Translations under genes and position numbers: made by a program | Shown: one piece after another, positions 16,601-61,647 of the stretch | How the letters are laid out: each line of letters begins with the position of its first letter | How positions within the stretch are numbered: position 1 is the first letter of the stretch | Notes under the pieces: model-generated | Told to the model about the DNA's origin: nothing | Databases searched by the model: none | The model's input: the letters and a program-made list of their open reading frames with translations, nothing else | Origin: Timema cristinae | Taxonomy: Eukaryota > Arthropoda > Insecta > Phasmatodea > Timematidae | Direction of reading: 5' to 3' | Length of the DNA stretch: 64,000 nt | NCBI GenBank assembly: GCA_039000515.1 | Contig: JBCFYV010000001.1 | Location: forward strand, 14,795,928 to 14,859,927

Positions 16601-19600
16601 GTAGTGTACCTGATAGAGGGGTACTGTATATACATAGTGTACCTGATAGAGGGGTACTGTATATACAGTAGTGTACCTGATAGAGAGGTACTGTATATAC
16701 ATAGTGTACCTGATAGAGGGGTACTGTATATACATAGTGTACCTGATATAGAGGTACTGTATATACATAGTGTACCTGATATAGAGGTACTGTATATACA
16801 TAGTGTACCTGATATAGAGGAACTGTATATACATAGTGTACCTGATAGAGCGGTACTGTATATACAGTAGTGTACCTGATATAGAGGTACTGTATATACA
16901 TAGTGTACCTGATAGAGAGGTACTGTATATACAGTAGTGTACCTGATAGAGGTACTGTATATACAGTAGTGTACCTGTTAGAGGGGTACTGTATATACAG
17001 TAGTGTACCTGATAGAGAGGTACTGTATATACATAGTGTACCTGATAGAGGTACTATATATACATAGTGTACCTGATAGAGGGGTAGGCCTACTGTATAT
17101 ACATAGTGTACCTGATAGAGGTACTGTATATACATAGTGTACCTGATAGAGGGGTACTGTATATACATAGTGTACCTGATAGAGGGGTACTGTATATACA
17201 TAGTGTACCTGATAGAGGGGTACTGTATATACAGTAGTGTACCTGATAGAGAGGTACTGTATATACATAGTGTACCTGATAGAGGTACTATATATACAGT
17301 AGTGTACCTGATAGAGGGGTACTGTATATACATAGTGTACCTGATAGAGGGGTACTGTATATAGAGTAGTGTACCTGATAGAGCGGTACTGTATATACAG
17401 TAGTGTACCTGATATAAAGGTACTGTATATACAGTAGTGTACCTGATAGAGGGGTACTGTATATACATAGTGTACCTGATAGAGGTACTATATATACAGT
17501 AGTGTACCTGATAGAGGGGTACTGTATATACATAGTGTACCTGATAGAGGGGTACTGTATATACAGTAGTGTACCTGATAGAGAGGTACTGTATATACAT
17601 AGTGTACCTGATAGAGGTACTATATATACAGTAGTGTACCTGATAGAGGGGTAGAGGTACTGTATATACAGTAGTGTACCTGATAGAGGTACTGTATATA
17701 CAGTAGTGTACCTGATAGAGAGGTACTGTATATACAGTAGTGTACCTGATATAGAGGTACTGTATATACAGTAGTGTACCTGCTAGAGGGGTACTATATA
17801 TACAGTAGTGTACCTGATAGAGGGGTACTGTATATACATAGTGTACCTGATAGAGGGGTACTGTATATACATAGTGTACCTGATAGAGAGGTACTGTATA
17901 TACATAGTGTACCTGATAGAGGGGTACTGTATATACAGTAGTGTACCTGATAGAGGGGTACTGTATATACAGTAGTGTACCTGATAGAGGTACTATATAT
18001 ACAGTAGTGTACCTGATATAGAGGTACTGTATATACATAGTGTACCTGATAGAGCGGTACTGTATATACAGTAGTGTACCTGATAGAGGTACTGTATATA
18101 CAGTATTGTACCTGATAGAGGTACTGTATATACAGTAGTGTACCTGATAGAGAGGTACTGTATATACAGTAGTGTACCTGTTAGAGGGGTACTGTATATA
18201 CAGTAGTGTACCTGATAGAGAGGTACTGTATATACATAGTGTACCTGATAGAGGTACTATATATACAGTAGTGTACCTGATAGAGGGGTAACTGTATATA
18301 CAGTAGTGTACCTGATAGAGAGGTACTGTATATACATAGTGTACCTGATAGAGGTACTATATATACAGTAGTGTACCTGATAGAGGGGTACTGTATATAC
18401 ATAGTGTACCTGATAGAGGGGTACTGTATATACAGTAGTGTACCTGATAGAGAGGTACTGTATATACATAGTGTACCTGATAGAGGTACTATATATACAG
18501 TAGTGTACCTGATAGAGGGGTAGGCCTACTGTATATACATAGTGTACCTGATAGAGGTACTGTATATACAGTAGTGTACCTGATAGAGGTACTGTATATA
18601 CAGTAGTGTACCTGATAGAGGTACTGTATATACAGTAGTGTACCTGATAGAGGTACTGTATATACAGTAGTGTACCTGATAGAGAGGTACTGTATATACA
18701 GTAGTGTACCTGATAGAGGGGTACTGTATATAGAGTAGTGTACCTGATAGAGCGGTACTGTATATACAGTAGTGTACCTGATATAAAGGTACTGTATATA
18801 CAGTAGTGTACCTGATAGAGGGGTACTGTATATACATAGTGTACCTGATAGAGGTACTATATATACAGTAGTGTACCTGATAGAGGGGTACTGTATATAC
18901 ATAGTGTACCTGATAGAGGGGTACTGTATATACAGTAGTGTACCTGATAGAGAGGTACTGTATATACATAGTGTACCTGATAGAGGTACTATATATACAG
19001 TAGTGTACCTGATAGAGGGGTAGAGGTACTGTATATACAGTAGTGTACCTGATAGAGGTACTGTATATACAGTAGTGTACCTGATAGAGAGGTACTGTAT
19101 ATACAGTAGTGTACCTGATATAGAGGTACTGTATATACAGTAGTGTACCTGCTAGAGGGGTACTATATATACAGTAGTGTACCTGATAGAGGGGTACTGT
19201 ATATACATAGTGTACCTGATAGAGGGGTACTGTATATACATAGTGTACCTGATAGAGAGGTACTGTATATACATAGTGTACCTGATAGAGGGGTACTGTA
19301 TATACAGTAGTGTACCTGATAGAGGGGTACTGTATATACAGTAGTGTACCTGATAGAGGTACTATATATACAGTAGTGTACCTGATATAGAGGTACTGTA
19401 TATACATAGTGTACCTGATAGAGCGGTACTGTATATACAGTAGTGTACCTGATAGAGGTACTGTATATACAGTATTGTACCTGATAGAGGTACTGTATAT
19501 ACAGTAGTGTACCTGATAGAGAGGTACTGTATATACAGTAGTGTACCTGTTAGAGGGGTACTGTATATACAGTAGTGTACCTGATAGAGAGGTACTGTAT

Positions 19601-22600
19601 ATACATAGTGTACCTGATAGAGGTACTATATATACAGTAGTGTACCTGATAGAGGGGTACTGTATATACAGTAGTGTACCTGATAGAGAGGTACTGTATA
19701 TACATAGTGTACCTGATAGAGGTACTATATATACAGTAGTGTACCTGATAGAGGGGTACTGTATATACATAGTGTACCTGATAGAGGGGTACTGTATATA
19801 CAGTAGTGTACCTGATAGAGAGGTACTGTATATACATAGTGTACCTGATAGAGGTACTATATATACAGTAGTGTACCTGATAGAGGGGTAGGCCTACTGT
19901 ATATACATAGTGTACCTGATAGAGGTACTGTATATACAGTAGTGTACCTGATAGAGGTACTGTATATACAGTAGTGTACCTGATAGAGGTACTGTATATA
20001 CAGTAGTGTACCTGATAGAGGTACTGTATATACAGTAGTGTACCTGATAGAGAGGTACTGTATATACAGTAGTGTACCTGTTAGAGGGGTACTGTATATA
20101 CAGTAGTGTACCTGATATAGAGGTACTGTATATACAGTAGTGTACCTGATAGAGGGGTACTATATATACAGTAGTGTACCTGATAGAGGGGTACTGTATA
20201 TACATAGTGTACCTGATAGAGGGGTACTGTATATACAGTAGTGTACCTGATAGAGAGGTACTGTATATACATAGTGTACCTGATAGAGGGGTACTGTATA
20301 TACAGTAGTGTACCTGATAGAGGTACTATATATACAGTAGTGTACCTGATATAGAGGTACTGTATATACATAGTGTACCTGATAGAGGTACTGTATATAC
20401 AGTAGTGTACCTGATAGAGGTACTGTATATACAGTAGTGTACCTGATAGAGAGGTACTGTATATACAGTAGTGTACCTGTTAGAGGGGTACTGTATATAC
20501 AGTAGTGTACCTGATAGAGAGGTACTGTATATACATAGTGTACCTGATAGAGGTACTGTATATACAGTAGTGTACCTGATAGAGGTACTGTATATACAGT
20601 AGTGTACCTGATAGAGAGGTACTGTATATACAGTAGTGTACCTGTTAGAGGGGTACTGTATATACAGTAGTGTACCTGATAGAGAGGTACTGTATATACA
20701 TAGTGTACCTGATAGAGGTACTATATATACAGTAGTGTACCTGATAGAGGGGTAGGCCTACTGTATATACATAGTGTACCTGATAGAGGTACTGTATATA
20801 CAGTAGTGTACCTGATAGAGGTACTGTATATACAGTAGTGTACCTGATAGAGAGGTACTGTATATACAGTAGTGTACCTGTTAGAGGGGTACTGTATATA
20901 CAGTAGTGTACCTGATATAGAGGTACTGTATATACATAGTGTACCTGATAGAGCGGTACTGTATATACAGTAGTGTACCTGATAGAGGGGTACTGTATAT
21001 ACAGTAGTGTACCTGATAGAGGGGTACTGTATATACAGTAGTGTACCTGATAGAGGGGTACTGTATTTACAGTAGTGTACCTGATAGAGGGGTACTGTAT
21101 ATACAGTAGTGTACCTGATAGAGGGGTACTGTATATACAGTAGTGTACCTGATATAGAGGTACTGTATATACATAGTGTACCTGATAGAGGTACTGTATA
21201 TACAGTAGTGTACCTGATAGAGCTGTTGATGAGGTACTCGGGAGGTACATGAAAGTCAATATCTTGAGGCCGACACGGTGTCTCAGCCCAAGGTCCAGCA
21301 AAGTTGGGATACAAGTTCTCTGGTGAGTTGAGATTGAGTCCGAGGGCGGTCAAGTCCTGTCCCAGTGCAAGGGATACAAGGTTAGGGTCAGTTTCCGCTG
21401 CTCTGATGAACGTCAAGAGCCCGACCATTCCAAACTGGTCCTTTACCATACTTCCCGGTATATTGGTTACCTGACCTGAACAGAGAAATATTATATATAC
21501 AACGACATGGCGTCACGACTACCAGTTCACAGTAGTAACCACATGACACATCTACCAGCTAACAGTAGTAACCACATGATGGTGTCACAGCTACCAGCTA
21601 ACAGTAGTAACTACATGATAGTGCCACAGCCCAACCCAACATAGTCAACCCCTCACGTGTCAATGTTGCCAACTTTTGTGGTTAAATTGAACAATGATTG
21701 TACCCATTTCTATTTAAATGTTATAGTTCATATTATTTAATTGATGTGATCTCTACATAAACTATGTTAACCCTTTAATCAGCGTTTTACAGCCGCTGTG
21801 CCACAAATTGTCAGTTAAGGAGTGCCAGCAGGAGTTTGAGGAAGGATGAAAAAGGAAGCGAGAAACAAAATTTAGGAGTAAAAATAAATATTTTTAGATC
21901 CATGATCAACATTATATTTAGAAATAAAACAACTATTATAATTTTGCTATCAAGGATTGATTAACTGCTTGGTAACAGTTTGTAGGAAAATATTTGACAA
22001 GAATTTCAAATTTTGGCAACTAAAGCTTTTAAGTCATATGATTCCAAACATTCCAATTTTTGAAGTAAGGAAAAACCCCTATTCTGAAGCCCATTTTCAT
22101 CTTGGAAGCCTTGTGTGAAATCGTCTGACATAGAGGTGGGACCCTCAAGCCCTTAAGGAAGTTTGAGTAGTCAAAGAATGTTTGGATTTGAGACTTAAAT
22201 CATTTAAAAAAATAATCTTTTTGAACTGTTGATTGTTTTATAGCTTTAATACATCTTATTGGTGGTTCTGACTCATTACACTTACAAGACCAACTTAACA
22301 ACCAGACCCCAAACCATTAATTTAACACTTAAATGAATTTATGAATGTTATAATTTAATGAATTATAGCAAAAAAAAGTCAACATTTAATTATTATTTCT
22401 ATCATTCCATTATATTTATATTTCCATCATTTTTATCAAGATTTTGATTTAAATTTGGGATTTGTAAATTATTTTAAGAATCGGATTCTTAAAACAGTAT
22501 GTTCAACCTAATTTTACATTATATAATATAAAGATTCGGATCCATAAAATATTATATATTCAACCCCAACTCTAAGTTGAAGTAATACTCTAGCAGGGCC

Positions 22601-30031: not shown

Positions 30032-30800
30032 GTGGATAGCGATAGTGAGGCTATAAACCATGTGGTCGGTCAATTCTCGGATGTTATCACTAATAGATTG
30101 GTTAAATGTGATATTCTGCTGTACGACATCATTGCGCAGGGCAACATTCTTGTGCGCTCAGGTCCATATTCCTATGCGCCTCCCAAAATGGAAATTTTCA
30201 GGAATTTAATTTTTGATCTTTAAAGAAAGGGGTTACTCGCCCATCTAAATCCCACTATACGAGTCGCGCTTTTATCATTCCTCGCAAAGGCCAAGGGTAT
30301 TATCTGATAGTCGATTATAGGAAGCTCAATAAAAAAATTGTTTGATCCGTATCCGATGTCTAATATCGAATCGGCCTTCTAACATCTTGATGGAGCTAAA
30401 TACTATAGTTTGATCGATCTTAACGCGAGTTTTCTTCGGTGCGTGTTCTCAGAGCCTTCCAAGAAATTCACTGCTTTCATTACTTCATGGCAGGTTTATG
30501 AATTTAACCGTGTGCCTCTGGGCATGAGTTGTGGGTGGCAATCATTGAGAAGGGTGTTGGATAATATCCTTGCTAACTTAAAATTTAAATTTGTCTTTTA
30601 TTATCTTGATGACATCTATATCTATAGTAACTCCCTTGACGATCATTTGCGTCATGTTGAAACTGTTTTGAGTCACCTGCGCACAGCGGGTCTTACTATC
30701 AATCTGGAGAAGGTCACTTGGGCAAAAAAAAAAAAAAGTACCTTACCTAGGGTATATTATCTCGGAAGGGAATCTTCTTGTTGACCCTGAGCGTGTTAAA
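30032..30800 (+). pseudogene. Gypsy reverse transcriptase, broken
   Basis: It begins with a VVGQFSDVITNRLVKCDI linker and a PYSYAPPKMEIFRNLI block. Next come RPSKSHYTSRAFIIPRKGQG and VDYRKLNKK, then in another frame LIDLNASFLRCVF, FTAFITSWQVYEFNRVPLGM and the catalytic FYYLDDIYIYSN (about 30597-30632). LRTAGLTINLEKVTWAKK follows, interrupted by a 13-A run at about 30725-30737. The YLDD box is intact, but stops at about 30222 and 30345 and the A-run frameshift kill the frame. Confidence 0.85.
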
Positions 30801-31015
30801 ATCATTCAAGACTTTTTGGCCCCAAAAAACATTACGAATGTGTTGCAATTTTTGGGTATGTGTTCGTATGACATCAGATTCATCCCCATGTTCTCTGAAG
30901 TGGCCTGACCCTGAACTCCCTTAAGAAAAAAGGGGCGACCTTTGTTTGAGGACAAGAGTAGAATGACGCCTTTCTCACTCTCAAGCGCCATCATGTTTCT
31001 CCTGCTGTTTTACGC

Positions 31016-31471
31016 ATGCCTGATTTCTCTCTTGCATTCCAAATGCATGTAGACGCTTCTTTGGTAGGGTTTTCCAGTAGAAACTTAAATGCGGTGGAGA
31101 ATAAATATAGTACTTGTGAAAAGGAATGTCTTGGGTGCATTTTTGCTTTCGAGAAGTTCTCTGACTACCTTGAACTTAAGAAGTTTGAACTGTTCACCGC
31201 TAATATGGCGCTGACCTGTATGTGGAGTTACCCCAAACAATTAGGCAAAATAGAGCGCTGGATTTGGAGAATCTCCAGGTATAATTTCACTACCCATTAT
31301 ATCTCTAGGAAAATGAATGGGGTAGTGGATGCGTTATCTCATATGTCCAAAGATATTGATCCTGTTGGGGAGCAACTAGAAACCGACCCCCTGTGTGTCA
31401 TACATACCCTCCCCGAATCCTTTATCTCGATTGGTACTCACCAGTCTAGAAATTTTTTTGTAAGCGGGTGA
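31016..31471 (+). pseudogene. Gypsy RNase H fragment
   Basis: The frame starts MPDFSLAFQMHVDAS, continues SSRNLNAVENKYSTCEKECL, then WSYPKQLGKIERWIWRISRY and ISRKMNGVVDALSHMS. These are the landmarks of the RNase H and tether region in Gypsy Pol (SR.L...E..Y.T.EKE.L, R..RW...L..Y, K.N.VADALSR). The first catalytic Asp lies in the VDAS motif. Confidence 0.8.
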
Positions 31472-31519
31472 TAGAGATAATCAAAGCTAGAGAGGTAGTA
31501 GGTAGCTAATCCATCCGTA

Positions 31520-32219
31520 AAGGCCTTTTGGTAGCCACTGTTAGAGGGAGAACCAGATATTACATTCCCGAAAAGCTTAGGCCCATGCTCCTAAAATATT
31601 TTCACGACTCTGTATTTGGTGGGCATTGTGGTATACCCAAAACTGGGCGTAAAGTCTCCAAAGAGTTCTTTTGGCCACATTTATCAAGGGGCGTTATGGA
31701 TTGGGTGCATAGGTGAAAGTTGTGTCAAAAGGCCAAACCCTCCCAGAACTAAAAGATTGTACTCCATTCTGCCGATATTGCTATGCGTCCCTGGGAAAAG
31801 ATTTTTGTTGACTACGTCGGGCCTCTCACTCGTTATTCCCTGGGTAACACCTCTATCTTAATTGCCATGGATGCGTTTTCTAAATTAGTGGTACTGATCC
31901 CTTCAGGAACATGAAGGCATCGACGACGGTGAACATCCCGTATAGGCGGGTTTTGGTTCTGCTAGGGACTCCTAGGGTTATTGTAAGTGATAATGGGCCA
32001 TGTTTTAGGTCTAAGGCATTCGGGGACATGTGCTTTTCTTGGGGTATCAGGCACGTGAATACCAGTCCTTACAATCCTTCCTCGAACCACGTGGAACGTT
32101 TCAACCGTAATCTGAACGTGGCGCTTTCCATCTTTCACCACCATGGCCACTCCCACTGGGATAAACACCTAAACTTCGTGAATGTTGCGTTCAATACTGC
32201 ATTCCATGAGTCTGTTTAA
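31520..32219 (+). pseudogene. Gypsy integrase, broken
   Basis: The N-terminal zinc-binding region reads LLKYFHDSVFGGHCG, then WPHLSRGVMDWVHR, with the CxxC part in another frame after a stop. The catalytic core is split: WEKIFVDYVGPLTR, then VIVSDNGPCFRSKAFGDMC and SPYNPSSNHVERFNRNLN. These carry the three acidic residues of the DD(35)E triad in order. The frame changes at about 31715 and 31905. Confidence 0.85.
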
Positions 32220-34039: not shown

Positions 34040-34048
34040 GGAAAATTG
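34040..34048 (+). repeat. Left 9-bp target-site duplication
   Basis: GGAAAATTG directly precedes the inverted terminus that starts at 34049. The same nine bases directly follow the opposite terminus at 61639-61647. Confidence 0.85.
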
Positions 34049-34640
34049 ATGTGTGTCTCCCTGGCCACCCGACTTTTAGCCACCCGGTTTTTGAAAACGC
34101 CCGTCGTTTGTGCTACGTTTGTGCTGGTTAGTGCCCGATTTTCATCGTTAGTGCTGTAAATTTACAGAAATTATTCACGATTCTTTATGGGTGGCTAGGG
34201 AGATATCTCCCTGGCCACCCACTATAAGAAATAATAGAGATAATCAATTTTCGAAAACGCCCATCGTTTGTGCTACGTTAGTGCTGGTTAGTGCCCGATT
34301 TTCATCGTTAGTGCTGTAAATTTACAGAAATTATTCACGATTCTTTATGGGTGGCTAGGGAGATATCTCCCTGGCCACCCACTATAAGAAATAATAGAGA
34401 TAATCAATTTTTGAAAACGCCCATCGTTTGTGCTGCGTTAGTGCTGGTTAGTGCCCGATTTTCATCGTTAGTGCTGTAAATTTACAGAAATTATTCACGA
34501 TTCTTTATGGGTGGCTAGGGAGATATCTCCCTGGCTACCCAGTATAAGAAATAATAGAGATAACCTTTTTTTGAAACCGCGCATCGTTTGTACTACGTTA
34601 GTGCTGGTTTGTGCTCGCTTGTGATCAATTTTTATCAACT
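34049..34640 (-). repeat. Left arm: 160-bp tandem units, inverted
   Basis: The arm holds a terminal cap of about 45 bp followed by about 3.5 units with an exact 160-bp period (the CGTTTGTGCT block at about 34106, 34266, 34426 and a variant at 34586). The units are the complement of those at 59625-61638. Units near the inner edge (34560-34640) are more diverged. Confidence 0.95.
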
Positions 34641-34705
34641 TGAATACATAATATCTTTTCCATATTTTATGCATTAACTTATAATTATATTAATTTATTA
34701 TTACT

Positions 34706-34849
34706 AGCACTGCGTCTTACTACCCGTTCGGGTTATACGCACTTACGCTAATCTGTAATGATAGGGTGATTGTGAGACTTAATGGAGGACCTACAGTTTA
34801 TGGTGGAATCCGAACCATGGTGGAGGCCTGGCATTCCCCACATTCACAA
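34706..34849 (-). mobile_element. SINE family A, 5'-truncated
   Basis: It has the family 3' body from AGCACTGCGTCTTACTACCC to GCATTCCCCACATTCACAA, with the ATT-rich tail at its left. The tRNA head is absent. It lies inside the large candidate element. Confidence 0.8.
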
Positions 34850-36212
34850 TAATTATATTTAGTTTACATTATGTTTAAGTGAAGTATCTCTAAATCCTAT
34901 GCAACCACCACTTTTCTCTACGTTTATACTGAATTCTTATGTTTTAGGCTAATATTTCTTAGTTTTTTTCATTTAATCACTTTTCAAAGTTTATTGTTCT
35001 ATGGTTTCTCACCGTCTATCTTTTAAATGAAAACTTTTTTTTTCTTCCTATGAATAATACTGTTAACTGTAATGTATTTTTTCAAAGACTTATTTGAAAA
35101 GCAACTATAGCTTAAACTCAGTTGTTTTGCAAATTTGTTTATTTTAGCCATGTTTTTTATGAGAAATTAGTTTTACATTGTTACTAAAATTAATTCACGA
35201 GCTAAGTTTACCTGGATGACAGCTCGAAGTGTTACTAGAAGTAATCCCTGATATATCACTACGCCAACAGCTGACATCTATCACTTTGGATGACTAATGA
35301 AAACAGATGGTAATATATTAATGTGATAGTTAACCACAGTAATTTAGGCCAATATTATTTATATATTTATTTGAGGTCGGACACAAAGTTTTTATATAGT
35401 TTTATTCCCCTTAAAAAAATATTAACACCACTTTCATAATAACTAACGAACATAGCTTCAAAATGGCGCCTGACGGATCTAAACCATATGATTAAACATA
35501 ACTGTAAACAAGTTTTTTACGATGATGCAGGCACGCAGTTGATGAAAATATTTTATTCAGTTAAATATTTAAAACTAAGTTAAAATAGTCATAAAATCAT
35601 TTATTATATGTAAAAAAATGACAACAATTTTCTCTTTTCGTATTTATACGATGCCTGTATTAAAAGGTATTGATGTGTGCACTATATTACACAAAATTAG
35701 TAACGTTCCAAAACGAAAAATAAGTACTTTTAATTAAGTTTAAAATATTGTTTCCAGTTGGATAAAAAGAAATTATTTAAAAAAATGAGATAGTATGAGA
35801 AAACTTAAGTTTACGTTATTTTAAATGTTATATATAATAGGTAATTAAATATCTTTACATTTATAACAAAACTGTGATCTTTTACAAGTGTTGGCAACCC
35901 AAAACCTAAACATTTGATTTATATATATATATATTTGACTATTCTTTTTATAGAATAAATTGATAGGGAAGAAAAAGCTTTATTTTGGTGTCCGCTATCG
36001 CACAAGGAACTAATTATTGTAAATGCCACATTTATTAAATGTTAGATTAAATTCAAGATAATCAATAACAATTCTACATTAAAACTATTCTTTAATTATT
36101 GAATATTGAATTTATTTCGTAATGTGAATGATTGAAGATAAAATTCCCTTTTTCTTGTGCTTGACATTTTTTGATCACAACTTAAATGTTTTTGACTAAC
36201 ATTTATAACCAT
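34850..36212. other. AT-rich interior, nothing recognised
   Basis: No open frame with a domain, no repeat boundary. There is a short TA microsatellite at about 35920-35934. Confidence 0.4.
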
Positions 36213-36785
36213 ACTAGATTTTACCCGTCGTGGCTTCGCCCGCAATAATTGATAACATCTTTTAATTTTTAACTAAACTGTTTTGGTCATTAATAAAAAA
36301 TATTCAAATATCTATGCGTTTTTCTCAGTTCTAGCTATAAATAATTTTGCCGTATTTTAATTTTCACTTTTAAATATTTCGTAATAAAAGAAATATATAT
36401 TATTTAAACTATCAATTATAATTTTTTTTTACTTTTAACTTCAAAATTAGTAAGATAAATTAATTAATTAAATAAAAAATCGAACTACATAGCTAAAATC
36501 ACATCATATTTATTATTTATTAGTATGAAACTACGTCACACTAATTACTATTTACTTTAATTACAAAATATCAAATCACATATTCTTAATAACATCATTT
36601 CAATCACATTATAATCATATATTTATTATTATTTAAAATCAAAGGTTGGGAATAGTCCTATATGTTATTCCAGGACATGTTCTACCAACGTACAAAGTTT
36701 CATTCGAATCCGTCAGCAATTTTGGCGTGATTGAGCAACAAACATCCAAACACACATACTTTCGCATTTATAATATTAGTAAGAT
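36213..36785 (+). mobile_element. RTE-like retroelement fragment (non-autonomous)
   Basis: The left edge reads CTAGATTTTACCCGTCGTGG CTTCGCCCGC. The right edge has GTTTCATTCGAATCCGTCAG, CAACAAACATCCAAACACAC and ends CATTTATAATATTAGTAAGA. This pairing of a CCCG...GGCTTCGCCCGC start and an AACATCC...TATAATATTAGTA end is common among short RTE-related repeats in insect genomes. The AT-rich middle has no coding sequence. Confidence 0.6.
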
Positions 36786-37044
36786 GTCACTTTTCTGGCT
36801 AAAGTCAGTGTATGCAGTATTTATTTTCAGGTATGCTGTACTCTCTCCAATTCAACCCTTCTTATCTAATCCCACACTCTCATACTTCTTTCTTTGCCAA
36901 CTAATTTGCAGCGTGTACTTGGAATGACCATTCTAATAGTTTCAAGCTGAAAGGTTTGGATTTTCCTAATCTCAAGGACTTATCCCTTCCATCACTCTCC
37001 CCAGACGCCGCTAATACTTCCTATTTCGTTTAACAATTTCTTGC

Positions 37045-37264
37045 CTTGGATTTACCCAACTTTGTTGCTGCTGAGGATGGGGAGATCAAGGTTCGAATCT
37101 CGGTCGGGTGAACTGGGGGTGGTTTTTTCTAAATGGTTTTCCACTCTACCTCCACGCAAATGCGGGTTCACTTCCTATAATTCAACCTTCCCAATTCCTA
37201 ATCCATTAGCGTAATTAGTACTTAAAGCGTATAACCCGAACGAGTAGTAAGATGCGGTGCTAAA

Positions 37265-37296
<32 letters not shown>
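37045..37296 (+). mobile_element. tRNA-derived SINE, family B, with family-A tail
   Basis: The head carries a B box (GGTTCGAATCTCGGTCGGGT). The body contains GTTTTCCACTCT and CGCAAATGCGGG. The 3' end reads GCGTATAACCCGAACGAGTA then GTAAGATGCGGTGCTAA plus an ATT microsatellite (37264-37296). That 3' block is the same as in family A, although the head differs. Confidence 0.8.
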
Positions 37297-37298
<2 letters not shown>

Positions 37299-37574
37299 CT
37301 TGTTGCTTGATCAATACACAGCATAGCTAACTATTCTTGTATACGTACTTAAACAACAAACTGGTGAAATTGAAATAATTTACTCGAGGGCAAATATATA
37401 AGACAACCAGCACCACCCCTCACTATATCGTTGAGCTAATATCACAAATTTAACTGATATTTTGTCTTACACTGCTGGCATATGTCGCTTTTTCCAACAT
37501 TATTTAAATATTTTCACGTACCCCCAAAAGTCCTGGACGTATGCCTGGCGTTACGTGTACTCCAGGCTGGAAAC

Positions 37575-37735
37575 AACTGGTTTAAGGCATCACCTTTGTG
37601 TTAGACTGCTCTGCTGATGACTGAGGGATCGGAGTTCATTTCCAGTCGGGTCTACTGGGGGTAGTTTTTCCAAAATTGTTTCCCACTCTCCCCATATAAA
37701 TGCGGGGCGGATGCACTTCCTCTAAATTCAACCTC
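37575..37735 (+). mobile_element. SINE family B, diverged copy
   Basis: It shares TCGGGTCTACTGGGGGTAG, GTTTCCCACTCTCCC and AATGCGGG with the copy at 37045. The B box is degraded (GGAGTTCATTTCC). Confidence 0.6.
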
Positions 37736-38212
37736 CCTCATTTATCAGTCAGATACATACACCCCAATATTTACAAGCGTAGAAAGACGTACAGATGGAA
37801 ACGTACACTCGTCTAGGAAACAACCCTCCAAAGAAGTTGAAGATTACAGTGGGAAAATAGCAGTTTCTGGCTAATAAAATTACTTACTATAGTTAAAGAT
37901 AAATATATCTGTTTGATTTTGTCAAAGAGATGTGACATACATATTTACTTGTGTAATTTTCTCGGTGAGTATAGATGCTCTAAATAAACAATACATTGCA
38001 CCATTGTGGATAATTTTTTAATTTTTAAATGAAATATGTGTATTAGATTAGTCTTTATTTTTTCAAAAGTTTGAAGTTCAAATTATTCTTTTTGTAATTT
38101 TGATATCTGTACTAGGATTTAAAAATGTGGTAATGTTGAAATAAATGTGAGTGACGCAGTAAATATAGCACGCTTATAATATTAAGACGGAATTTACACC
38201 ATTTCTACCATT

Positions 38213-38327
38213 TAAAATGCAAACGGGATGAAATTTACCCAAAACGCAAAGAATGAGTGTTAAAAAAATTGTGCAGCTATTATTTTTATCCGGGGCACAA
38301 GTGGTTGTTGCTAAATAACGCTAATAT
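38213..38327 (+). repeat. 115-bp dispersed repeat, copy 1
   Basis: It matches 59295-59410 in the same orientation almost base for base (shared CGGGATGAAATTTACC, AACGCAAAGAATGAGTGTTA and GTGGTTGTTGCTAAATAACG). Both copies end at CTAATAT. The second copy sits exactly at the right edge of the large satellite. Confidence 0.9.
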
Positions 38328-39034
38328 GAGATCTGTCCCCTCATTTTCTACGCCCTTGTACCCTGAACTTAAGAATGAATACTTTCTGTTCGATGTCTGT
38401 CTATCTGTCCCTCAGTACATCTGCCTTTAGCCGGGGCCATAGACTAAACGGTTTGATGAATTTGTTCAAAAGTGATATTTAGATGCAATTAATCAAAATT
38501 AGAGTAATTTAATAAAGATAATTTTTTTTAAAAATCTGTAACTTTAAAAAAATGGCTATATCACTTCTGTTCAAAATTTACATATGAAGAAGCTTGTTAT
38601 GATGATCAAAACAACGTGTTTTTTTTAAAGAAAACTTATTAATGTGTAATTTACCGAAATCTGATATTTCAAAAATTGTATCATAATTTACAAACCATAA
38701 TACATTATTTGAGTAAGTATGTAAGATTGTGTCGTAATATTTATGTTTTTGAATTTTAATCGCGCTTATGGATTAAGGATGAGAAGATAAAAATGTTAAA
38801 GGAAATTTTATTTCTTTTGTGTGGAAGGAGAATAAGAAACCATTTAGGGGAAAAAAAACCTAACTAAAAACGGCCTGGATTCCAATCCCGACCTACAAGT
38901 TATAGTCAAACCCCGTTAGATGAGCTTGACGTTTAATCTGCGTGCTCATCAATGAAGTTTGATATTGATTTATTTACGATGTGTCTCTTTGTAAAAAAAA
39001 GTTTACTTAACTAGGAGTACTACACACTTCGATG

Positions 39035-39262
39035 GATGACCTAACGCGCTACTCTTGCAGTGGTTTAGACTGCCGATGACGGGGAGATCAAGGTTCGAAT
39101 CTCGATCGAGTGGACAGAGTTTTTTTTTCCAAAATGGTTTTCCACTCTTCCTACACGCAATGTGGGTACAATTCCTATTAATATAACTTTCCTGATCCCT
39201 AAAATTAGCGTAATTATTACATAAGCGTATTATTCAAACGGATAGAAATATTATTATTATTA
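39035..39262 (+). mobile_element. SINE family B copy, tail-to-tail with a family A copy
   Basis: The head contains GGTTTAGACTGCCGATGACG and the B box GGTTCGAATCTCGATCGAG, the body GGTTTTCCACTCTTCC. The 3' end is degraded (AAGCGTATTATTCAAACGG) and runs into an ATT tract shared with the minus-strand SINE at 39265. Confidence 0.75.
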
Positions 39263-39264
39263 TT

Positions 39265-39397
39265 AGCACCGCGTCTTACTAACCGTTCGGGTTATACGCA
39301 CTTACGCTAATGTGTAATGGTAAGGTGATTGTGAGATGAAATGAAGGACCTACAGTTTAACGTGGAATCCGAACCACGGTGGCGACCTGGCATTCCA
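39265..39397 (-). mobile_element. SINE family A, 5'-truncated
   Basis: Almost identical to 26696-26830, including GGTGGCGACCTGGCATTCCA at its inner edge. It shares the ATT tract with the plus-strand SINE on its left. Confidence 0.8.
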
Positions 39398-39909
39398 GGA
39401 TAGAAATACATGGTGCTAAAAACAACAACTATAGGTATTAAACATGTAGTCCTAGATGGGCCCTTGTGTAGTCCACCAAGGTACGATTGCTACAATTTAG
39501 GGCAGACTGAGTACGTATTAAGCCTACTTACTATATCAGCACATACCTGGCTCACAGATTAACCGCAATCTAAAAAAAAAAAACGTAACAACTTTTTTTA
39601 AAGACAGTCGTTTCATCTCTATCGAAGGGGAAACACAGACACATTCTCCTGTAATTTTTTTTTATCACGCTGAGAATATAATTAGGGACACTTGGTAAAT
39701 GCGTTACTAATTAGGTTAATACAAAAATTTTAATTGGATGTATGATCCAAGCTTGAATAGTTTTACTTGGCAATTATTTTTCTTGTTTGTTGCTGTTATT
39801 TAATAAAGAAATAAAGGTCAACAGTGATAGCATATGAACTTTCGATAAAATCTTTTAGTTTCGTTTTAACGATTAATTTTTAATCAGTTTAATGTTTCTG
39901 ACCCACCCA

Positions 39910-40085
39910 CATCGGTGGGAACACGGGCTAAGACGTTATCCTCATCTGATCTTGTATGCTGGTGACGGGGAAGTGGTCAGTATTTGAATCTTGGACGGGT
40001 ATAATGAGACTGTTTTTGTACTAAATGTTGTTATTATCATCTTCCACGTCAATGTTGATACATTTCCTCTTACACGGATAGTAAT
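39910..40085 (+). mobile_element. Diverged SINE of the family B type
   Basis: GGTGACGGGGAAGTGGTCAG followed by TATTTGAATCTTGGACGGG recalls the family B head, and an AT-rich body follows. The diverged B box makes this tentative. Confidence 0.45.
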
Positions 40086-40462
40086 ATACAGTGCATACCA
40101 AGATATTACTTTCTGAGCTCTAAAATAATGAACCAGCGTAATGGTCTTAAGTAAAATCTTGCTTTACTGACAAAAGAAGACCCGAGTTCAATTCTCAACC
40201 AGATACACTGGTAATAGTTTATTTCTATAAAAGGTTTTCTATTGTCTTTTCAGATATATGTTTATTTAAAATTAATTTATTTTCATCAGGTTTCCTTTAT
40301 TTATTAATTTTAGAACACAAATATTGCAAACAGGCACTAAAAACATTCCGATAGATTGAAAATCTGTCAATTTATGTTATGATTACATTTATTTGAGCTT
40401 GGTTTATATATTTAATTTAGGATTTTATCAATTGTTTCTCATACCAAATCTTTAAACTTGAT

Positions 40463-40690
40463 ATCGACCTTGCTGGTGTTGGGGTAAAATGCTCGCCTCA
40501 AGATCCGATGTTCGTGGGTTCCAAACCCAGTTGGGGTCGACGGATTTTGCTTGAGGGGTAAAAAATACGTAGCACAACTTACTTTGGTGGGGAAATAAAG
40601 CCATCGTTCCCATGTTAATTGTGGCTGTGAAAATACCTTTCCCGGTAAAATTGATAGGCCCTTTCGTTCTCGCTCATAGAAATTCTCGTA
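40463..40690 (+). mobile_element. tRNA-derived SINE, another head type
   Basis: GGTGTTGGGGTAAAATGCTC with GTTCGTGGGTTCCAAACCCA resembles an A box and B box of a tRNA-like head, followed by a body with no coding potential. The minus-strand open frame at 40439-40693 is only this element read backwards. Confidence 0.55.
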
Positions 40691-41596
40691 CATTTATATA
40701 ATCAGCCGGCTCAGAGAGTATACGTAAAGTTCCTAAGATATTTAAAAAAACCCAACTAAACCTGACACGTTAAAAGGCAACGTGGCGTAAAACCAGACAT
40801 GTATTAAAATCTCAATCTCCTTGAGATGATGCGAGTTTATTACACTGCAAGATGAAGCGGTCACGTAACATAACCCAAAATAAGATCACATGCAGATAAT
40901 TATGAACATAACTTCGTTAAGGAATGAGATTTTTTTTTTCATTAGAATAAATCTCACTGTAATTGTTTAACCTCTCGAAAATTTCAATCTAGCAACAAAT
41001 ATTTCGAAATTTATTTGCTAGACAATAGTTAAAATGGTGGACGTTAGGATTAACTATTTGATGAGCAGAAATATTGAAGATTTTTAAAATAATTTAATCG
41101 ATTATCATGTATATTTCCTAAACGAGAAAATGCCTTAGATTTAAGTGAAAATAAATAAATAAATTATTGTACAAACTGGATAAACATGCGCTTTTAATTT
41201 AATCAAATGTTTTGAAGTATTTAAAGGACTTAGACCCCCTAGTAGTACAACTGCTGAATATTTTATTTTTCTAAAAACACCCAATACACTTTTTACTCAC
41301 ACAAATGCAACACATATTAAATGTTAGAAATATTTAATTCTTTTATTGCTTAAAATGGCTGAAAGTTTGGCTACGTATAGATTTATGTAGATTTTAAACC
41401 AAACAATTAAAGCCATTTTCGCAATATTCCAAATGTTCAATAATCAACCATCATTAATTTAATTGGATAACCATTTAGCCCCCCCACCCTAAGAAAAAAC
41501 AAGAATAAAGTGTTTCTTACCTTGTAAAACACTCCATAGATGTAAATTTAGAACAAAATCGTGTAAAGCCATTTATAAAATATTTAGATTATTATT

Positions 41597-41877
41597 AGCA
41601 CCTCGTCTTACTACCCGTTCGGATTATACGCACTTACGCTAACGTGTAATGATAGGGTGATTGTGAGATGAAATGGAGAAACTACAGTTTAACGTGGAAT
41701 ACGAACCACGGTGGAGGCCTGGCATTCCTCACATTCACAAGTTATGATTAATACACGTCTTGTCAGAGGTGAAGGAAGGGTTTGGCAATCAGATAAATCT
41801 GTGCCGGAACCGAGGATTGAACCCCGGACCCCCAGCAAAGAAGTCCGACATCTTACCCCTAGACCACCAGGTCACCT
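41597..41877 (-). mobile_element. tRNA-derived SINE, family A, near full length
   Basis: The minus-strand head reads GGTGACCTGGTGGTCTAGGG then GTAAGATGTC (A box) and GGGGTTCAATCCTCGGTTCC (B box). The full family body and an AAT tail at about 41586-41596 follow. This is the best preserved copy in the window. Confidence 0.85.
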
Positions 41878-41879
41878 AA

Positions 41880-43205
41880 AATATTTTGAATTTTAATAAA
41901 TTAGTCATAGATTAACTACCAATGATTTTAGGACTAGAATCAACATCACCAATTTGCCTTGAGATGTGCCAATATAACTTATAAGCATCAAGTTTGAACA
42001 GAACAATAATCATTTTGTAAAACGCTATCAAGGTTCAAGCTACATCAGCATATCTCTTTGTACTTTATTTTTAAATTCAATCCAAAAGTCCATTCGTAAG
42101 AAAATCAAGTTATGCATCATGTGTGTGTACGTGTGTGTACGTGTGTGTATCCAGGAAGTTAGAACAGTTATGTGTACGGCCCACACATTGTATTCAACAC
42201 TCAGTACCGCTATTGTAGTACAGTAATCAGTGGTGTTGAAAGTCTCGCTTAAAAAGGAAAGTCATTAACTTTTGTTTTTCTTTATTGCGTAAAACGTCAT
42301 TCAGGAACTACTAAATTTGATAAAATTCAATTCAACCGCTTCACTGTTTCAGTAATGTTCCAAAACCCTTAAAAATATGAAGTAGGCTACTTTCATAATT
42401 TAAACAAACTTTAATACTTAAATTAAATTACTGGATTGAGCTGCTGAATATTATTTTAGTTCTTGAGTTTAGGTTAGTTTTAATATTGTGTTACTTTACT
42501 CTTCCTTTGATTAGTGTTTGGTATATTTTATCTTTGTAGTTCCCCTTATCACCCAACCAACACTCCTGTTGGTAATTACAATTGTATAGTGTAACGCCCC
42601 ATTACAAATATTTACATTTACAATATGTAATGAGCACTATTCTACACTGGATATCATTTTTGAGGGACTGCATAGCTACTATTGGGAAATAGCGTTGTCG
42701 TTTAATTGTTTGCGTGTGGTCAATCTTCCTTGCCTTTATGTATAAAAGTTTCGCAACGCTGGTTAGTCAATGTTGCCAGTAACTTCTTCTTGCCACCTTC
42801 CGACATAACTGAGAACGAGGAGATTTGGCAACAGTTAACGGAGAGAGAACGAAGATAAAGCTTTTCTCCATAAGACCTGCAGTTACCTCAGCGATGATAT
42901 TGGGTGTAGACTCAGTAGCGTACCCCCGGTGGGGCATGGGGAAATCGAGCCCCCTTTCCATAGTTTGGGGATGCCCCGAGATCTATGCAGATCCGAAGAA
43001 AAAATAAAATGGGGTGGGGTGGTGCGGGGGTGGAGGGAAGGAGAGTATGACCAGTTAAACATTGCGAACAAATAAAATATCAGGTGATCAGAAATAGTTT
43101 CTATATCAATCACCAAATGTATTTATTTCATAGGAGTGGACTGTCTTTCATGGAATGGAGGTGATATATCTTCACGCTCTGAAAATATTATACTTTGGTC
43201 AGTAG
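41880..43205. other. Interior sequence with microsatellite, no gene recognised
   Basis: A compound repeat of GTGTGTGTAC lies at 42121-42150. The stretch at 42167-42235 (TGTGTACGGCCCACACATTG) resembles the tandem unit at 43206-43540. I see no coding sequence. Open frames at 42767-43116 overlap on both strands without recognisable domains. Confidence 0.45.
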
Positions 43206-43540
43206 GATTTAGCAGGGTCACCAACAGAGCAATATCTTCATACTAACATTCTGAATGTGCATTAGTAATGGACATATGTCTAGAGGATGTCAAACCAGAT
43301 GTTTGTCGGCCTAAACATTGTGTCTAACATCCAATACTGCTATACTAGTACGGAGGCTACCAGCAGGGTCGCCAACAGAGCAATATCTTCAGATAAACTT
43401 TCTGAATATTCAATAATAATGGATGTATTATGTTTTTAGGATGTCAAGCCAGATGTGTACAGCCTTCACATAGTATCCAATATACAGTACCGCTATGCTA
43501 CCACTGTGGTTACCAGCAGGGTCGCCAACAGAGCAAACAC
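43206..43540. repeat. ~152-bp tandem repeat, two and a bit units
   Basis: AGCAGGGTC-x-CCAACAGAGC occurs at about 43212, 43363 and 43516. The intervening 150 bp are homologous (CAATATCTTCA, GGATGTCAA-CCAGATGT, CAATA-AC-GCTAT). Confidence 0.8.
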
Positions 43541-43949
43541 CTCTAAAGAAGTATTTTTCACCGTCGTGCTACCAGAAACCGCTTTCATATCAGGTTTCTT
43601 GATGTGAGTTTTTCAATAAGCTCAACATATTTTCAAATAAATCACCATTACAATTTTGAATACTGTTCGTACGGTAGTTGATCAAAAGATTTTAGTTTTT
43701 TTAGATGACTATGATTTTATATTAATAATACATCGATTTGTTTCTTTTACTCAGATTAAGATATTGCATCATTGATCCACCGCTGAATAAAAAAAAATGC
43801 CCACAAATTATAATTTAGATATCAGGTTGATTTTTAACATCATAATTACAATGTTGAGCCACATTTAAAAAGATTAAATTGTACAAGGGATGTACACGAA
43901 ACAAATATTATCTTAGGTATATTATTATAGTAAATATCTTCCCACACCA

Positions 43950-44130
43950 GTGGTCGTACGGTCTTAGGGATTAGTCTCCCAACGGGCTTGGTTCCTATGA
44001 CATGGACGTCAAGGCTCAAATCTCGGCCGGATGCATGAGGGATTGTTTTCAACATATGGTTTGTCACGGTGAATTTACCATCCTCTTTCCCCAGTAATGC
44101 GTGTGCAATTAATCTAAAACATCCCACTTT
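43950..44130 (+). mobile_element. Diverged SINE of the family B type
   Basis: A tRNA-like head with GACGTCAAGGCTCAAATCTC GGCCGG (B-box-like) followed by a body with CATATGGTTTGTCACGGTGA. Boundaries are approximate. Confidence 0.45.
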
Positions 44131-44779
44131 CTCGTCCTTACCCTATTAATAGCCATAATATTGAACGTAATAATTAAAATAATATAATGAACGTCCATGT
44201 AACAACCTACCACGGAATGGCAGAACACTATCTTTTCTGACCTCTATTTGAATTGATCTTCATTCAAATGCTTGAATGAATGTGTGAAGGATTCTACCGA
44301 AGTAGGTTGGGGAACATATTTCATAAGTGTAAACGAATAAAATAGGTAACAAAAATAGATTTATTATACAATTAACTTAAAAAGGTGATATGGGGTTACA
44401 ATAGTTATGATAAGGGTTAACAACTCCAAAAACATAGGAACTACCTGTAGCACGGGAAAAGAACGTGTCCAAGGCGACAAGGCAGCAGTCAAATGGAAGT
44501 TAAGTTGATAGAGGGTATTGGATTGCAAGACAGCGGGGCTAGCGCCAGACTTCGACCAGAAAGGTCTAAAAAGGAAAACATGGAGAGTTAGCAACATATA
44601 AAGCACTAGCCCCATTCCGCGTAAAAAAATATTGTAAAGAATCCTGTAAAACAAAGCTTCAAATCATCCATCGTGTCAATATAATAACCAAACTTTTACT
44701 TAAAAAAAAAACAGTCTTAACATCACTGTATAGCCCCCTACCTCTTTTTATCCTCCCTCTTATTTTCATCTCATTCCTC
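44131..44779. other. Interior sequence, no gene recognised
   Basis: The minus-strand open frame at 44364-44654 has no recognisable domain. Nothing else is seen before the satellite starts. Confidence 0.4.
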
Positions 44780-59294
<14,515 letters not shown>

Positions 59295-59295
<1 letters not shown>

Positions 59296-59410
59296 AAAAT
59301 GAAAACGGGATGAAATTTACCAAAAACGCAAAGAATGAGTGTTAAAAAAATTGTGCTGCTATTATTTTTATCCGGGCGCACAAGTGGTTGTTGCTAAATA
59401 ACGCTAATAT
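59295..59410 (+). repeat. 115-bp dispersed repeat, copy 2
   Basis: Direct copy of 38213-38327. It begins where the satellite monomer breaks off (after CTTGTGAACT), so it marks the satellite's right boundary. Confidence 0.9.
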
Positions 59411-59624
59411 ACTATCTTATTAACGCAACATTAGGCTATAGTTATTAAATGTGGTCATCTATCATAAGTATATTATTGACAGTAAAATATTATCGCTATC
59501 CATTATACTGGACGAAATTGTATTATTATATTTTTACTATGGCATGGATTATATCTTACTTAAACGTATTTAACAAATAACTATAGCTACTATACTATCG
59601 ATGTAAATAATATATGTTATTGAT
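59411..59624. other. Short unique spacer
   Basis: AT-rich sequence rich in CTATA/TATAG words, between the 115-bp repeat and the right arm. Nothing is recognised. Confidence 0.4.
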
Positions 59625-61638
59625 ACAATCGGGCACTAACCAGGACTAACGTAGCACAAACGATGGGCGTTTTCTAAAATTGATTATCTCTATTATTTCT
59701 TATAGTGGGTGGCCAGGGAGATATCTCCCTAGCCACCCATAAAGAATCGTGAATAATTTCTGTAAATTTACAGCACTAACGATGAAAATCGGGCACTAAC
59801 CAGCACTAACGTAGCACAAACGATGGGCGTTTTCAAAAATTGATTATCTCTATTATTTCTTATAGTGGGTGTACAGGGAGATATCTCCATAGCCACCCAT
59901 AAAGAATCGTGAATAATTTCTGTAAATTTACAGCACTAACAATGAAAATTGGGCACTAACCAGCACTAACGTAGCACAAACGATGGGCGTTTTTAAAAAT
60001 TGATTATCTCTATTATTTCTTATAGTGGGTGTACAGGGAGATATCTCCCTAGCCACCCATAAAGAATCGTGAATAATTTCTGTAAATTTACAGCACTAAC
60101 AATGAAAATCGGGCACTAACCAGCACTAACGTAGCACAAACGATGGGCGTTTTCAAAAATTGATTATCTCTATTATTTCTAATATTGGGTGGCCAGGGAG
60201 ATATCTCCCTAGCCACCCATAAAGAATCGTGAATAATTTCTGTAAATTTACAGCACAAACGATGAAAATCGGGCACTAACCAGCACTAACGTAGCACAAA
60301 CGATGGGCGTTTTCGAAAATTGATTATCTCTATTATTTCTTATAGTGGGTGGCAAGGGAGATATCTCCCTAGCCACCCATAAATAATCGTGAATAATTTC
60401 TGTAAATTTACAGCATTAACGATGAAAATCGGGCACTAACCAGCACTAACGTAGCACAAACGATGGGCATTTTCAAAAATTGATTATCTCTATTATTTCT
60501 TATAGTGGGTGGCCAGGGAGATATCTCCCTAGCCACCCATAAAGAATCGTGAATAATTTATGTAATTTTAGAACACTAAAGATGAAAATCGGGCACTAAC
60601 CAGCACTAACGTAGCACAAACGATGGGCGTTTTCAAAAATTGATTATCTCTATTATTTCTTATAGTGAGTGGCCAGGGAGATATCTCCCTAGCCACCCAT
60701 AAAGAATCGTGAATAATTTCTGTAAATTTACAGCACTAACGATGAAAATCGGGCACTAACCAGCACTAACGTAGCACAAACGATGGGCGTTTTCAAAAAT
60801 TGACTATCTCTATTATTTCTTATAGTGGCTGGCCAGGGAGATATCTTCCTAGCCACCCATAAAGAATCGTGAATAATTTCTGTAAATTTACAGCACTAAC
60901 GATGAAAATCGGGCACTAACCAGCACTAACGTAGCACAAACGATGGGCGTTTTCAAAAATTTATTATTTCTATTATTTCTTATAGTGGGTGGCCAGGGAG
61001 ATATCTCCCTAGCCACCCATAAAGAATCGTGAATAAGTGCTGTAAATTTACAGCACTAACGATGAAAATCGGGCACTAACCAGCACTAACGTAGCACAAA
61101 CGATGGGCGTTTTCAAAAATTGATTATCTCTATTATTTCTTATAGTGGGTGGCCAGGGAGATATCTCCCTAGCCACCCATAAAGAATCGTGAATAATTTC
61201 TGTAAATTTAGAGCATTAACGATGAAAATCGGGCACTAACCAGCACTAACGTAGCACAAACGATGGGCGTTTTCAAAAATTGACTATCTCTATTATTTCT
61301 TATAGTGGCTGGCCAGGGAGATATCTTCCTAGCCACCCATAAAGAATCGTGAATAAGTGCTGTAAATTTACAGCACTAACGATGAAAATCGGGCACTAAC
61401 CAGCACTAACGTAGCACAAACGATGGGCGTTTTCAAAAATTGATTATCTCTATTATTTCTTATAGTGGGTGGCCAGGGAGATATCTCCCTAGCCACCCAT
61501 AAAGAATCGTGAATAAGTGCTGTAAATTTACAGCACTAACGATGAAAATCGGGCACTAACCAGCACTAACGTAGCACAAACGATGGGCGTTTTCAAAAAC
61601 CGGGTGGCTAAAAGTCGGGTGGCCAGGGAGACACACAT
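59625..61638 (+). repeat. Right arm: thirteen 160-bp tandem units
   Basis: The CGATGGGCGT mark occurs at 59661 and then every 160 bp to 61581 with no length change (one copy reads CGATGGGCAT). Each unit contains a near-perfect 32-bp palindrome with halves GGGTGGCCAGGGAGAT and ATCTCCCTAGCCACCC, and a perfect 14-bp palindrome CTGTAAATTTACAG. The last unit runs into the terminal cap CCGGGTGGCTAAAAGTCGGG then TGGCCAGGGAGACACACAT. Confidence 0.97.
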
Positions 61639-61647
61639 GGAAAATTG
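61639..61647 (+). repeat. Right 9-bp target-site duplication
   Basis: GGAAAATTG directly after the right terminus, identical to 34040-34048. Confidence 0.85.

Follow-up and report, generated by a model that had tools for sequence, protein, structure and literature searches.

Several described transposons combine inverted termini with tandemly repeated units. Rehavkus-1_TC, an insect DNA transposon from Tribolium, is 9.5 kb long, and its inverted termini consist of a 164-bp satellite unit, mostly in five and eight monomers (PMC10218199, in the available part of that account). The Rehavkus group makes 9-bp duplications and carries a minisatellite ahead of its 3' inverted repeat (PMC6446971, likewise in part). 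For Tetris of Drosophila virilis, a non-autonomous foldback element, the available description gives arm units of ∼220 bp in variable number that contain a stretch common to the outer terminus, duplications of 8-10 bp, arms of at most 1,735 bp, and three structurally complete copies (PMC4079207). Galileo, a member of the P superfamily with a known transposase, has long arms and internal tandem repeats with extra transposase-binding sites (PMC3688188, in part). In the available part of the report on Tm1 from root-knot nematodes, the composite foldback arms are built of tandem motifs (∼14 bp) in differing numbers, the duplications are 9 bp, an element that was measured spans 1,080 bp, a Phantom-like transposase is known, and some members carry the transcribed sequence Cg-1 (PMC3169594). 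Captured gene sequence inside inverted-repeat transposons is described for Pack-TIR elements and for Ssk-FB4, which is multicopy; in the animal reference genomes covered by the available part of that survey, the median duplicated size is 224 bp, four cases (1.4%) are multicopy, and no Pack-MULE is given (PMC8277862). The longest complete arthropod MULE in a recent survey, as far as its available part goes, measures 9,972 bp (PMC13359780).

Here we describe a foldback-type, non-autonomous transposon from Timema cristinae that is unusual in its size and cargo. At 25-34 kb or more, its long copies are about threefold longer than that MULE. Unlike Rehavkus, a group defined by its PHD-finger transposase, it has no transposase that we could see and carries a second, unrelated satellite as well as a host exon. 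The available account of Tetris describes no such cargo, whereas the Timema element contains 14.5 kb of satellite internally, along with a gene exon. Compared with Pack-TIR elements, it contains kilobases of gene region plus satellite and exists in many copies. We consider it very probable that, taken as a whole, these data reflect a dispersed family of giant non-autonomous foldback-type transposons in Timema that were mobilised in trans, took in cargo and spread recently.

Structure of the element

The window, that is, the whole 64-kb stretch of T. cristinae DNA analysed, contains the element at full length (Table 1). An earlier note on this DNA had reported a 27.6-kb structure directly flanked by a 9-bp duplication, with exactly inverted termini and arms of 160-bp tandem units in opposite orientation, and all of this proved real. 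On the + strand of the window, GGAAAATTG occurs at the two flanking positions and nowhere else; a 9/9 match at fixed places is expected by chance with a probability of ∼9e-6, computed with the window composition. The termini are exact inverted copies over 54 bp and belong to a 578-bp inverted repeat of 95.5% identity (34049-34626 versus 61638-61061). The terminal cap, given as 45 bp in the earlier note, is indeed present at both ends, but the part that does not belong to an arm unit measures 39 bp. Behind this identical cap, the left arm has three whole units and a partial unit of 50-60 bp, and the right arm has 12 whole units plus a partial one whose end is in phase with that of the left. All 15 whole units are 160 bp long and indel-free, with 0-6 changes relative to their own consensus. 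Since the terminal motif is present twice, in inverted orientation, in most of the units, the arms resemble arrays of binding sites for a transposase; in Galileo the transposase is known, while in the Timema element binding is predicted from the sequence alone. Rfam and tRNA scans of the window found nothing.

Table 1. Layout of the Timema cristinae element (positions in the window)
Feature	Positions	Strand
Left target-site duplication GGAAAATTG	34040-34048	
Left terminal cap, 39 bp, same as right cap	34049-34087	+
Left arm, three 160-bp units and a partial unit	34088-34626	+
Left core, common to the 6.3-kb short form	34627-38211	+
∼117-bp direct repeat bounding the inserted cargo, left copy	38212-38327	+
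Putatively captured region that the short form lacks, with SINE-like repeats, an indel site at 39834 and the ITIH exon region	38328-44778	+
ITIH VIT-domain exon, open, with acceptor and donor	43440-43604	+
Higher-order satellite array, ∼790-bp repeat of three ∼263-bp monomers	44779-59293	+
∼117-bp direct repeat, right copy	59294-59410	+
Right core, which in the short form adjoins the left core directly	59411-59618	+
Right arm, partial unit and twelve 160-bp units, inverted relative to the left arm	59619-61599	-
Right terminal cap, 39 bp	61600-61638	-
Right target-site duplication GGAAAATTG	61639-61647	

Copies elsewhere in the genome

The search of the same assembly for the cap, which the earlier note had proposed, yielded other copies with the same tips, arms and interior and with differing duplications. 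The terminus occurs in at least 40 places, 38 in addition to both ends of the window copy (40 of 411 candidates were scored). We read 22 of the 38, of which 20 as 10-kb stretches. The cap is mismatch-free in 19 of these 20 stretches and has at most three edits in the remaining one. The window interior follows the same terminus in 19 stretches, with 98-99% identity over the main pieces except on one noisy contig; the exception, L027, departs from it at 34741. Nine contigs of 38-109 Mb, as well as smaller ones, carry the fetched copies, whose left arms comprise 1.3-4.3 units. Their left 9-bp flanks differ, apart from two pairs, each apparently a single insertion represented on two contigs, as the homology continues into the flanks.

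Both ends were read in seven copies, with lengths of 25.1, 25.6, 27.0, 27.1, 27.6, and 34.2 kb, plus a short form of 6.3 kb; among the long copies that were measured or probed, lengths start at 25 kb and exceed 41 kb at the upper end. For the other copies, the middle was sampled in part, and L022/L056 was covered at its ends. Six of the seven have target duplications of differing sequence: GGAAAATTG (the window copy, 9 bp), (T)GAGAACTA, (T)AGCTAGTA, (T)GGAAATAG, (T)ACTTAAAG, and (T)GTAAAAAG, the last five being 8 bp long if the element ends are assumed to be symmetrical (A...T), or 9 bp if the shared T is counted. An 8-mer match at fixed places has a chance probability of ∼3e-5. The seventh complete copy, L014/L051, has no target duplication. 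Ten copies were probed for the right end; in two of them (L011 and L018), four 260-bp probes at 15.0-22.6 kb and the region of 23.5-28.5 kb contained no satellite and no arm sequence, so that the right part is missing or the end is nearer. No empty insertion site was found. Long inverted arms with a variable number of tandem units, target-site duplications at the outer ends (here in six of the seven complete copies), and dispersed copies with identical ends at unrelated sites are features of the foldback class, and the element shows all of them.

A protein model of Timema podura includes the translated tip, the match beginning at the first base of the element, and protein searches with the arm and tip frames returned one protein, P0026. 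Exact scans of viral and prokaryote contigs for the cap and arm, which may omit records of this genome itself, returned no matches.

Cargo

The interior carries an exon of ITIH (inter-alpha-trypsin inhibitor heavy chain) with splice sites and a higher-order satellite array. The latter had been claimed as satellite cargo, correctly, and has a three-monomer structure (Table 1). The arms and the 263-bp satellite are not homologous, the best match being 11 bp (E 0.27).

The host exon had been overlooked in the earlier note. It lies inside the duplication-flanked element and also in other copies: the complete 241-bp exon probe is present in three of the 20 stretches with 99.2-100% identity, and eight further stretches contain a part of it that reaches the stretch end. 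The count was made by megablast, which the noisy contig L015 can escape; L010, L020, L026, and L028 stop before or barely within the exon, and L009, L013, L021, and L027 depart from the shared interior ahead of it. Degenerate partial copies of the VIT exon are found at 43229-43383 and 42170-42213. As in Pack-TIR elements, non-transposon host sequence is situated between the ends of one inverted-repeat transposon.

A tblastn search of the window with 25 ITIH proteins matched the VIT exon, the degenerate copy near 42172, and 39882-39975; beyond these three, there was no match below E 0.8. This search and the occurrence of the same interior at many loci led us to reject the interior as a genuine ITIH gene locus. 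The ITIH models P0001 (T. tahoe) and P0004 (T. poppense) also match 39882-39975. This is compatible with derivation of the interior from the ITIH locus but carries little weight, as the segment, although single-copy within the window, looks SINE-like. Timema proteins are the sole known trace of the ITIH parent.

Divergence and the short form

The long copies differ by 0.49% of substitutions on average (136 pairs, 17 copies) and by 0.96% at most. The count covers 16 of the 20 stretches and the window, with the short form L029 handled apart; it omits L009, which an insertion interrupts, L015 because of its noisy contig, L017, which represents the L016 insertion again, and L027, whose interior is different. 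The short form, known from one copy on a small contig, consists of the arms and a 3.9-kb core without the 21-kb cargo, has exactly one copy of the ∼117-bp repeat at the junction, and differs from each of the 17 other copies by 1.8-2.1%.

We suggest that an older 6.3-kb short form may have gained ∼21 kb, namely, host DNA around the ITIH exon and the higher-order satellite, between copies of the ∼117-bp sequence, and that the long form would have spread recently, after this gain. The arm and satellite lengths may keep changing, probably via unequal exchange. Conversely, the long form could be ancestral and the 6.3-kb copy a deletion via recombination between the ∼117-bp repeats, so that the cargo would be no late capture. 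The single repeat at the junction fits such a deletion, and, if it happened inside an old long copy, the divergence pattern would be the same; still, a copy more distant from the 17 others than these are from each other is what one expects of an older lineage, and we regard an ancestral long form as possible but doubtful.

Transposase search and classification

Pfam scans that covered 34600-44800 and a 2.4-kb satellite sample in all six frames found no transposase domains, in particular, no MULE-type DDE domain, no PHD-finger transposase domain, and no THAP domain; for these parts, the earlier claim of a missing transposase gene holds. As no transposase was found inside, the movement should be in trans. 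A transposase from elsewhere would recognise the terminal motif, repeated as an inverted pair in most arm units, excise the element, and insert it with an 8-9-bp target duplication, that is, by cut and paste.

MULE domains are abundant in this genome, with at least 150 matches (150 of 413 candidates were scored). A MULE transposase in any copy, which the earlier note had proposed to look for, was not observed: none of the 150 listed matches lies inside the seven measured elements, as judged by eye. Four fetched MULE loci match SINE-like repeats of the element's interior (70-87%), but neither its tips nor its arms, and no autonomous partner of the element was found. MULE duplications are 8-11 bp long, mostly 9 bp, while P and hAT typically have 8 bp. 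Of the earlier label "Foldback/Mutator-like", the foldback arms stand, whereas the Mutator part is not established, as no transposase was found and, with symmetrical ends assumed, five of the six duplicated copies have 8 bp. Without a MULE domain, we do not file the element as a Mutator member, although mobilisation by a MULE is still allowed.

The 8-bp duplications with symmetrical A...T ends could also mean that the element belongs to the P superfamily, being Galileo-like, or to another 8-bp superfamily, and that its foldback look is convergent. The long arms of Galileo, with extra transposase-binding sites in tandem repeats (PMC3688188), agree with this, but the window copy has 9 bp, the other five also have 9 bp once the T is assigned to the target, no transposase is at hand to decide, and MULE domains are numerous; we regard this assignment as rather unlikely. 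A non-autonomous Rehavkus member is an equally unlikely assignment. The similarity is in structure: inverted termini made of several tandem units of about the same length and a satellite ahead of one arm (here, the right one) recur in the Timema element. Against it, neither a transposase nor a PHD finger was found in the parts scanned, and five of the six duplications, compared with 9 bp in Rehavkus, read as 8 bp with symmetrical ends, or as 9 bp with the T.

Movement as a unit

We retain the foldback-type, non-autonomous transposon as the preferred reading. The 27.6 kb moved as one unit, as the earlier note had proposed, since other copies have the same interior and the same tips with different target duplications. 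Its alternative, growth after insertion, applies to the satellite and arm lengths, which vary among copies, but not to the cargo, which was present before the spread; growth solely after insertion is rejected, as the cargo is common to the copies. Two solo insertions face to face are rejected by the shared duplication and by the same end pair and interior elsewhere, and a single-locus curiosity or misjoin by the multicopy state. Spread by segmental duplication or satellite-driven exchange without transposition, with flank matches arising by chance, is highly improbable: the complete copy lacking a duplication would fit it, and ectopic exchange could readily use the arms and satellite, but the flanks outside the tip differ among copies, and six of seven complete copies have different 8-9-bp duplications, each hardly expected by chance.

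Significance

It has long been asked how satellite arrays get to new genomic sites, and here an array, together with its higher-order structure, rides a transposon. The family may tentatively be seen, at somewhat less than even confidence, as a vehicle that moves satellite as satellite, each trans-mobilised jump bringing higher-order arrays of 10-30 kb to a new site and seeding arrays together with an exon cassette. If so, the carried arrays, still changing in length, could possibly even be centromere-competent at the new sites. The copies are datable, and their array lengths allow a comparison from one copy to the next. In a genus used for research on speciation, they are also large substrates with inverted arms for rearrangement, and the intact exon, multiplied by the copies, could be spliced into host genes.

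Termini and arms

All three features claimed by the earlier note are present in the window: a target duplication, inverted termini, and arms of 160-bp units in opposite orientation. The inverted repeat of this copy is 578 bp long and 95.5% identical, with the outermost 54 bp identical. The left arm comprises three whole units and the right arm twelve, every one exactly 160 bp. As the inner ends of both arms break off at the same phase of the unit, the two are probably derived from a single original inverted repeat. Right-arm variants recur every 480 bp (units R2 and R5), a spacing that suggests unequal exchange.

The consensus unit carries one exact copy of the terminal motif CTCCCTGGCCACCC and one head-to-head copy with one mismatch. 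Sites with at most three mismatches to the 17-bp terminal sequence number 27 inside the element and zero elsewhere in the window (0.04 expected), and at this threshold a few units lack one of their two sites. In single-strand folding, two palindrome-holding stretches are much more stable than their shuffled versions (z-scores of -5.0 each); the cap alone is not (0.15).

The nearest known arm designs are those of Rehavkus-1_TC and Tetris, while for the cargo the nearest are Pack-TIRs. Among the best literature matches, no paper joined Timema or Phasmatodea with foldback, Mutator-like or Rehavkus elements, and nothing comparable was found for foldback, macrotransposon and gene capture. Judged from the literature rather than from transposon sequence libraries, the family is provisionally undescribed.

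Dispersed copies

We searched the assembly (1.29 Gb, 7605 contigs), in which the window occupies C1:14795928-14859927, with the first 212 bp of the element and obtained 427 matches. At least 40 start at the tip (40 of 411 candidates scored), two of them being the window copy's own ends. For comparison, twenty 10-kb stretches behind tips were fetched. The cap is flawless in 19 of them, with up to three edits in the remaining one. In none of the twenty stretches did the ~9.4 kb inside the tip show a facing cap, sought without gaps and with as many as 8 mismatches allowed, or a second arm array.

The window interior is common to 19 of the 20, with the main aligned pieces at 98-99%. L015, a noisy contig with the same flank as L020, is 86% identical, and the final 0.5-0.6 kb of L016 and L017 only 92-95%. 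Two stretches leave the shared interior and appear to run on in satellite (L021 from the equivalent of 38670, L013 from 40483), as internal deletions would give; L009 departs at 41459. In L027 (G000:C7014:24743745-24753744), the left arm passes into non-family DNA at the equivalent of 34741, at a SINE-like repeat; its ORFs at 791-1977 may resemble a type B DNA polymerase. Seven stretches (L013, L016, L017, L018, L019, L026, and L028) have an extra ~310-350 bp at the equivalent of 39834, which the window copy lacks, and its presence or absence is a marker for two subfamilies.

The right ends of ten further copies were sought by small stretches and found for five. In the four of these sampled between the ends, all but L022/L056, satellite was seen in probes or beside the right repeat. 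Among the other five, satellite continues at 28.4 kb in L010 and at 41 kb in L023, and the right core is reached at 34 kb in L012; no satellite or arm was seen in probes from 15 to 28.5 kb in L011 and L018. In addition, contig C1375 carries an entire 6.3-kb copy, in which window 34049-38327 is joined directly to 59411-61638, with a single ~117-bp repeat.

Target duplications flank six of the seven complete copies (the window copy, the short form, and five others). The duplication is 9 bp in the window copy and 8 bp in five others, all of which have a T directly before it on the left; assigning the final T of the right end to the target makes these five 9 bp as well. L014/L051 has no duplication at its ends, perhaps through exchange with another copy. 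In L025/L058 a plain arm unit runs into the terminal bases at the right end, and thus an ordinary 160-bp unit seems able to serve as an end.

Features of the window, and both-end copies elsewhere in the assembly
Feature	Position or ends	Length	Remark
Tandem array outside the element	16402-21222	4.8 kb	~145 copies of a 34-bp unit
Ty3/Gypsy-type reverse transcriptase, RNase H, integrase pieces	30383-32219		just left of the insertion
Mostly unique DNA with SINE-like repeats	34.63-44.78 kb		SINE-like repeats also found outside the element
~117-bp sequence, two copies	38212-38327 and 59294-59410		96.6% alike
VIT-domain exon	43440-43604		Pfam E 5e-8
Satellite	44779-59295		single orientation throughout
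Run of A in satellite array	49466-49841	376 A	possibly insertion tail or assembly/polishing artefact
Further copy	L024/L050	27,138 bp	
Further copy	L022/L056	25,645 bp	read at the ends
Further copy	L025/L058	27,002 bp	
Further copy	L014/L051	25,067 bp	
Further copy	L020/L073	34,168 bp	

Cargo

The VIT exon is closest to ITIH proteins from three Timema species, T. tahoe and T. douglasi (96%) and T. bartmani (91%), so that the window belongs to a Timema stick insect or a very near relative. The exon has an open reading frame, preceded by an acceptor and followed by GTGAGT, and degenerate partial copies lie upstream of it; the window holds no other convincing ITIH exon. Three of the twenty stretches contain the full 241-bp exon probe, and in eight more it is cut by the stretch end; among these eight, L016 and L017 are one insertion. 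In six frames, Pfam gave no domain besides VIT at 34600-44800 and nothing above cut-off at 44779-47180, a part of the satellite. Satellite identity is 95.5% between copies 790 bp apart and about 73% between copies one ~263-bp monomer apart. For T. douglasi centromeres, four abundant repeat families with motifs of 63-384 bp are mentioned in one account (PMC11691646).

Age and history

Across 3.35 kb of the left core, substitutions among 17 copies (136 pairs) average 0.49% (range 0.03-0.96%), and the short copy differs from each of the 17 by 1.8-2.1%. The long form has therefore spread recently from a single source. At one position of the ~117-bp repeat, the three complete right-hand copies (window, L051, and L058) share a base unlike all 14 aligned left-hand ones, whereas the lone repeat in the short form agrees with the left-hand ones; therefore, the doubling of this sequence predates the spread. 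A deletion between the two repeats could have made the short form. Still, we take the short form to be the earlier one and the 21 kb to be a later capture.

Mobility

The copies are many and dispersed, with the same ends, common cargo, target duplications, and variable arm and satellite lengths. Since no transposase gene was found in the parts of the element scanned, the transposase would be supplied in trans. By analogy with Galileo, as outlined in PMC3688188, the arms may be arrays of putative transposase-binding sites. A possible source of transposase exists, as at least 150 MULE-domain matches in the genome exceed the cut-off, with 150 candidates scored out of 413. Compared by eye, none of the matches listed lies inside the measured elements, and the four MULE loci examined showed no terminal link to the element.

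P0026, a carboxylesterase protein model of T. podura, holds the translated tip near its C terminus, from the first base of the element (28 residues, 86%). The family may thus have been exonised in a host gene of T. podura, or the model may be wrong. Little transposon activity in the genus is noted in a passage of the 2022 Timema genome paper (PMC8865771); the present family looks recently active.
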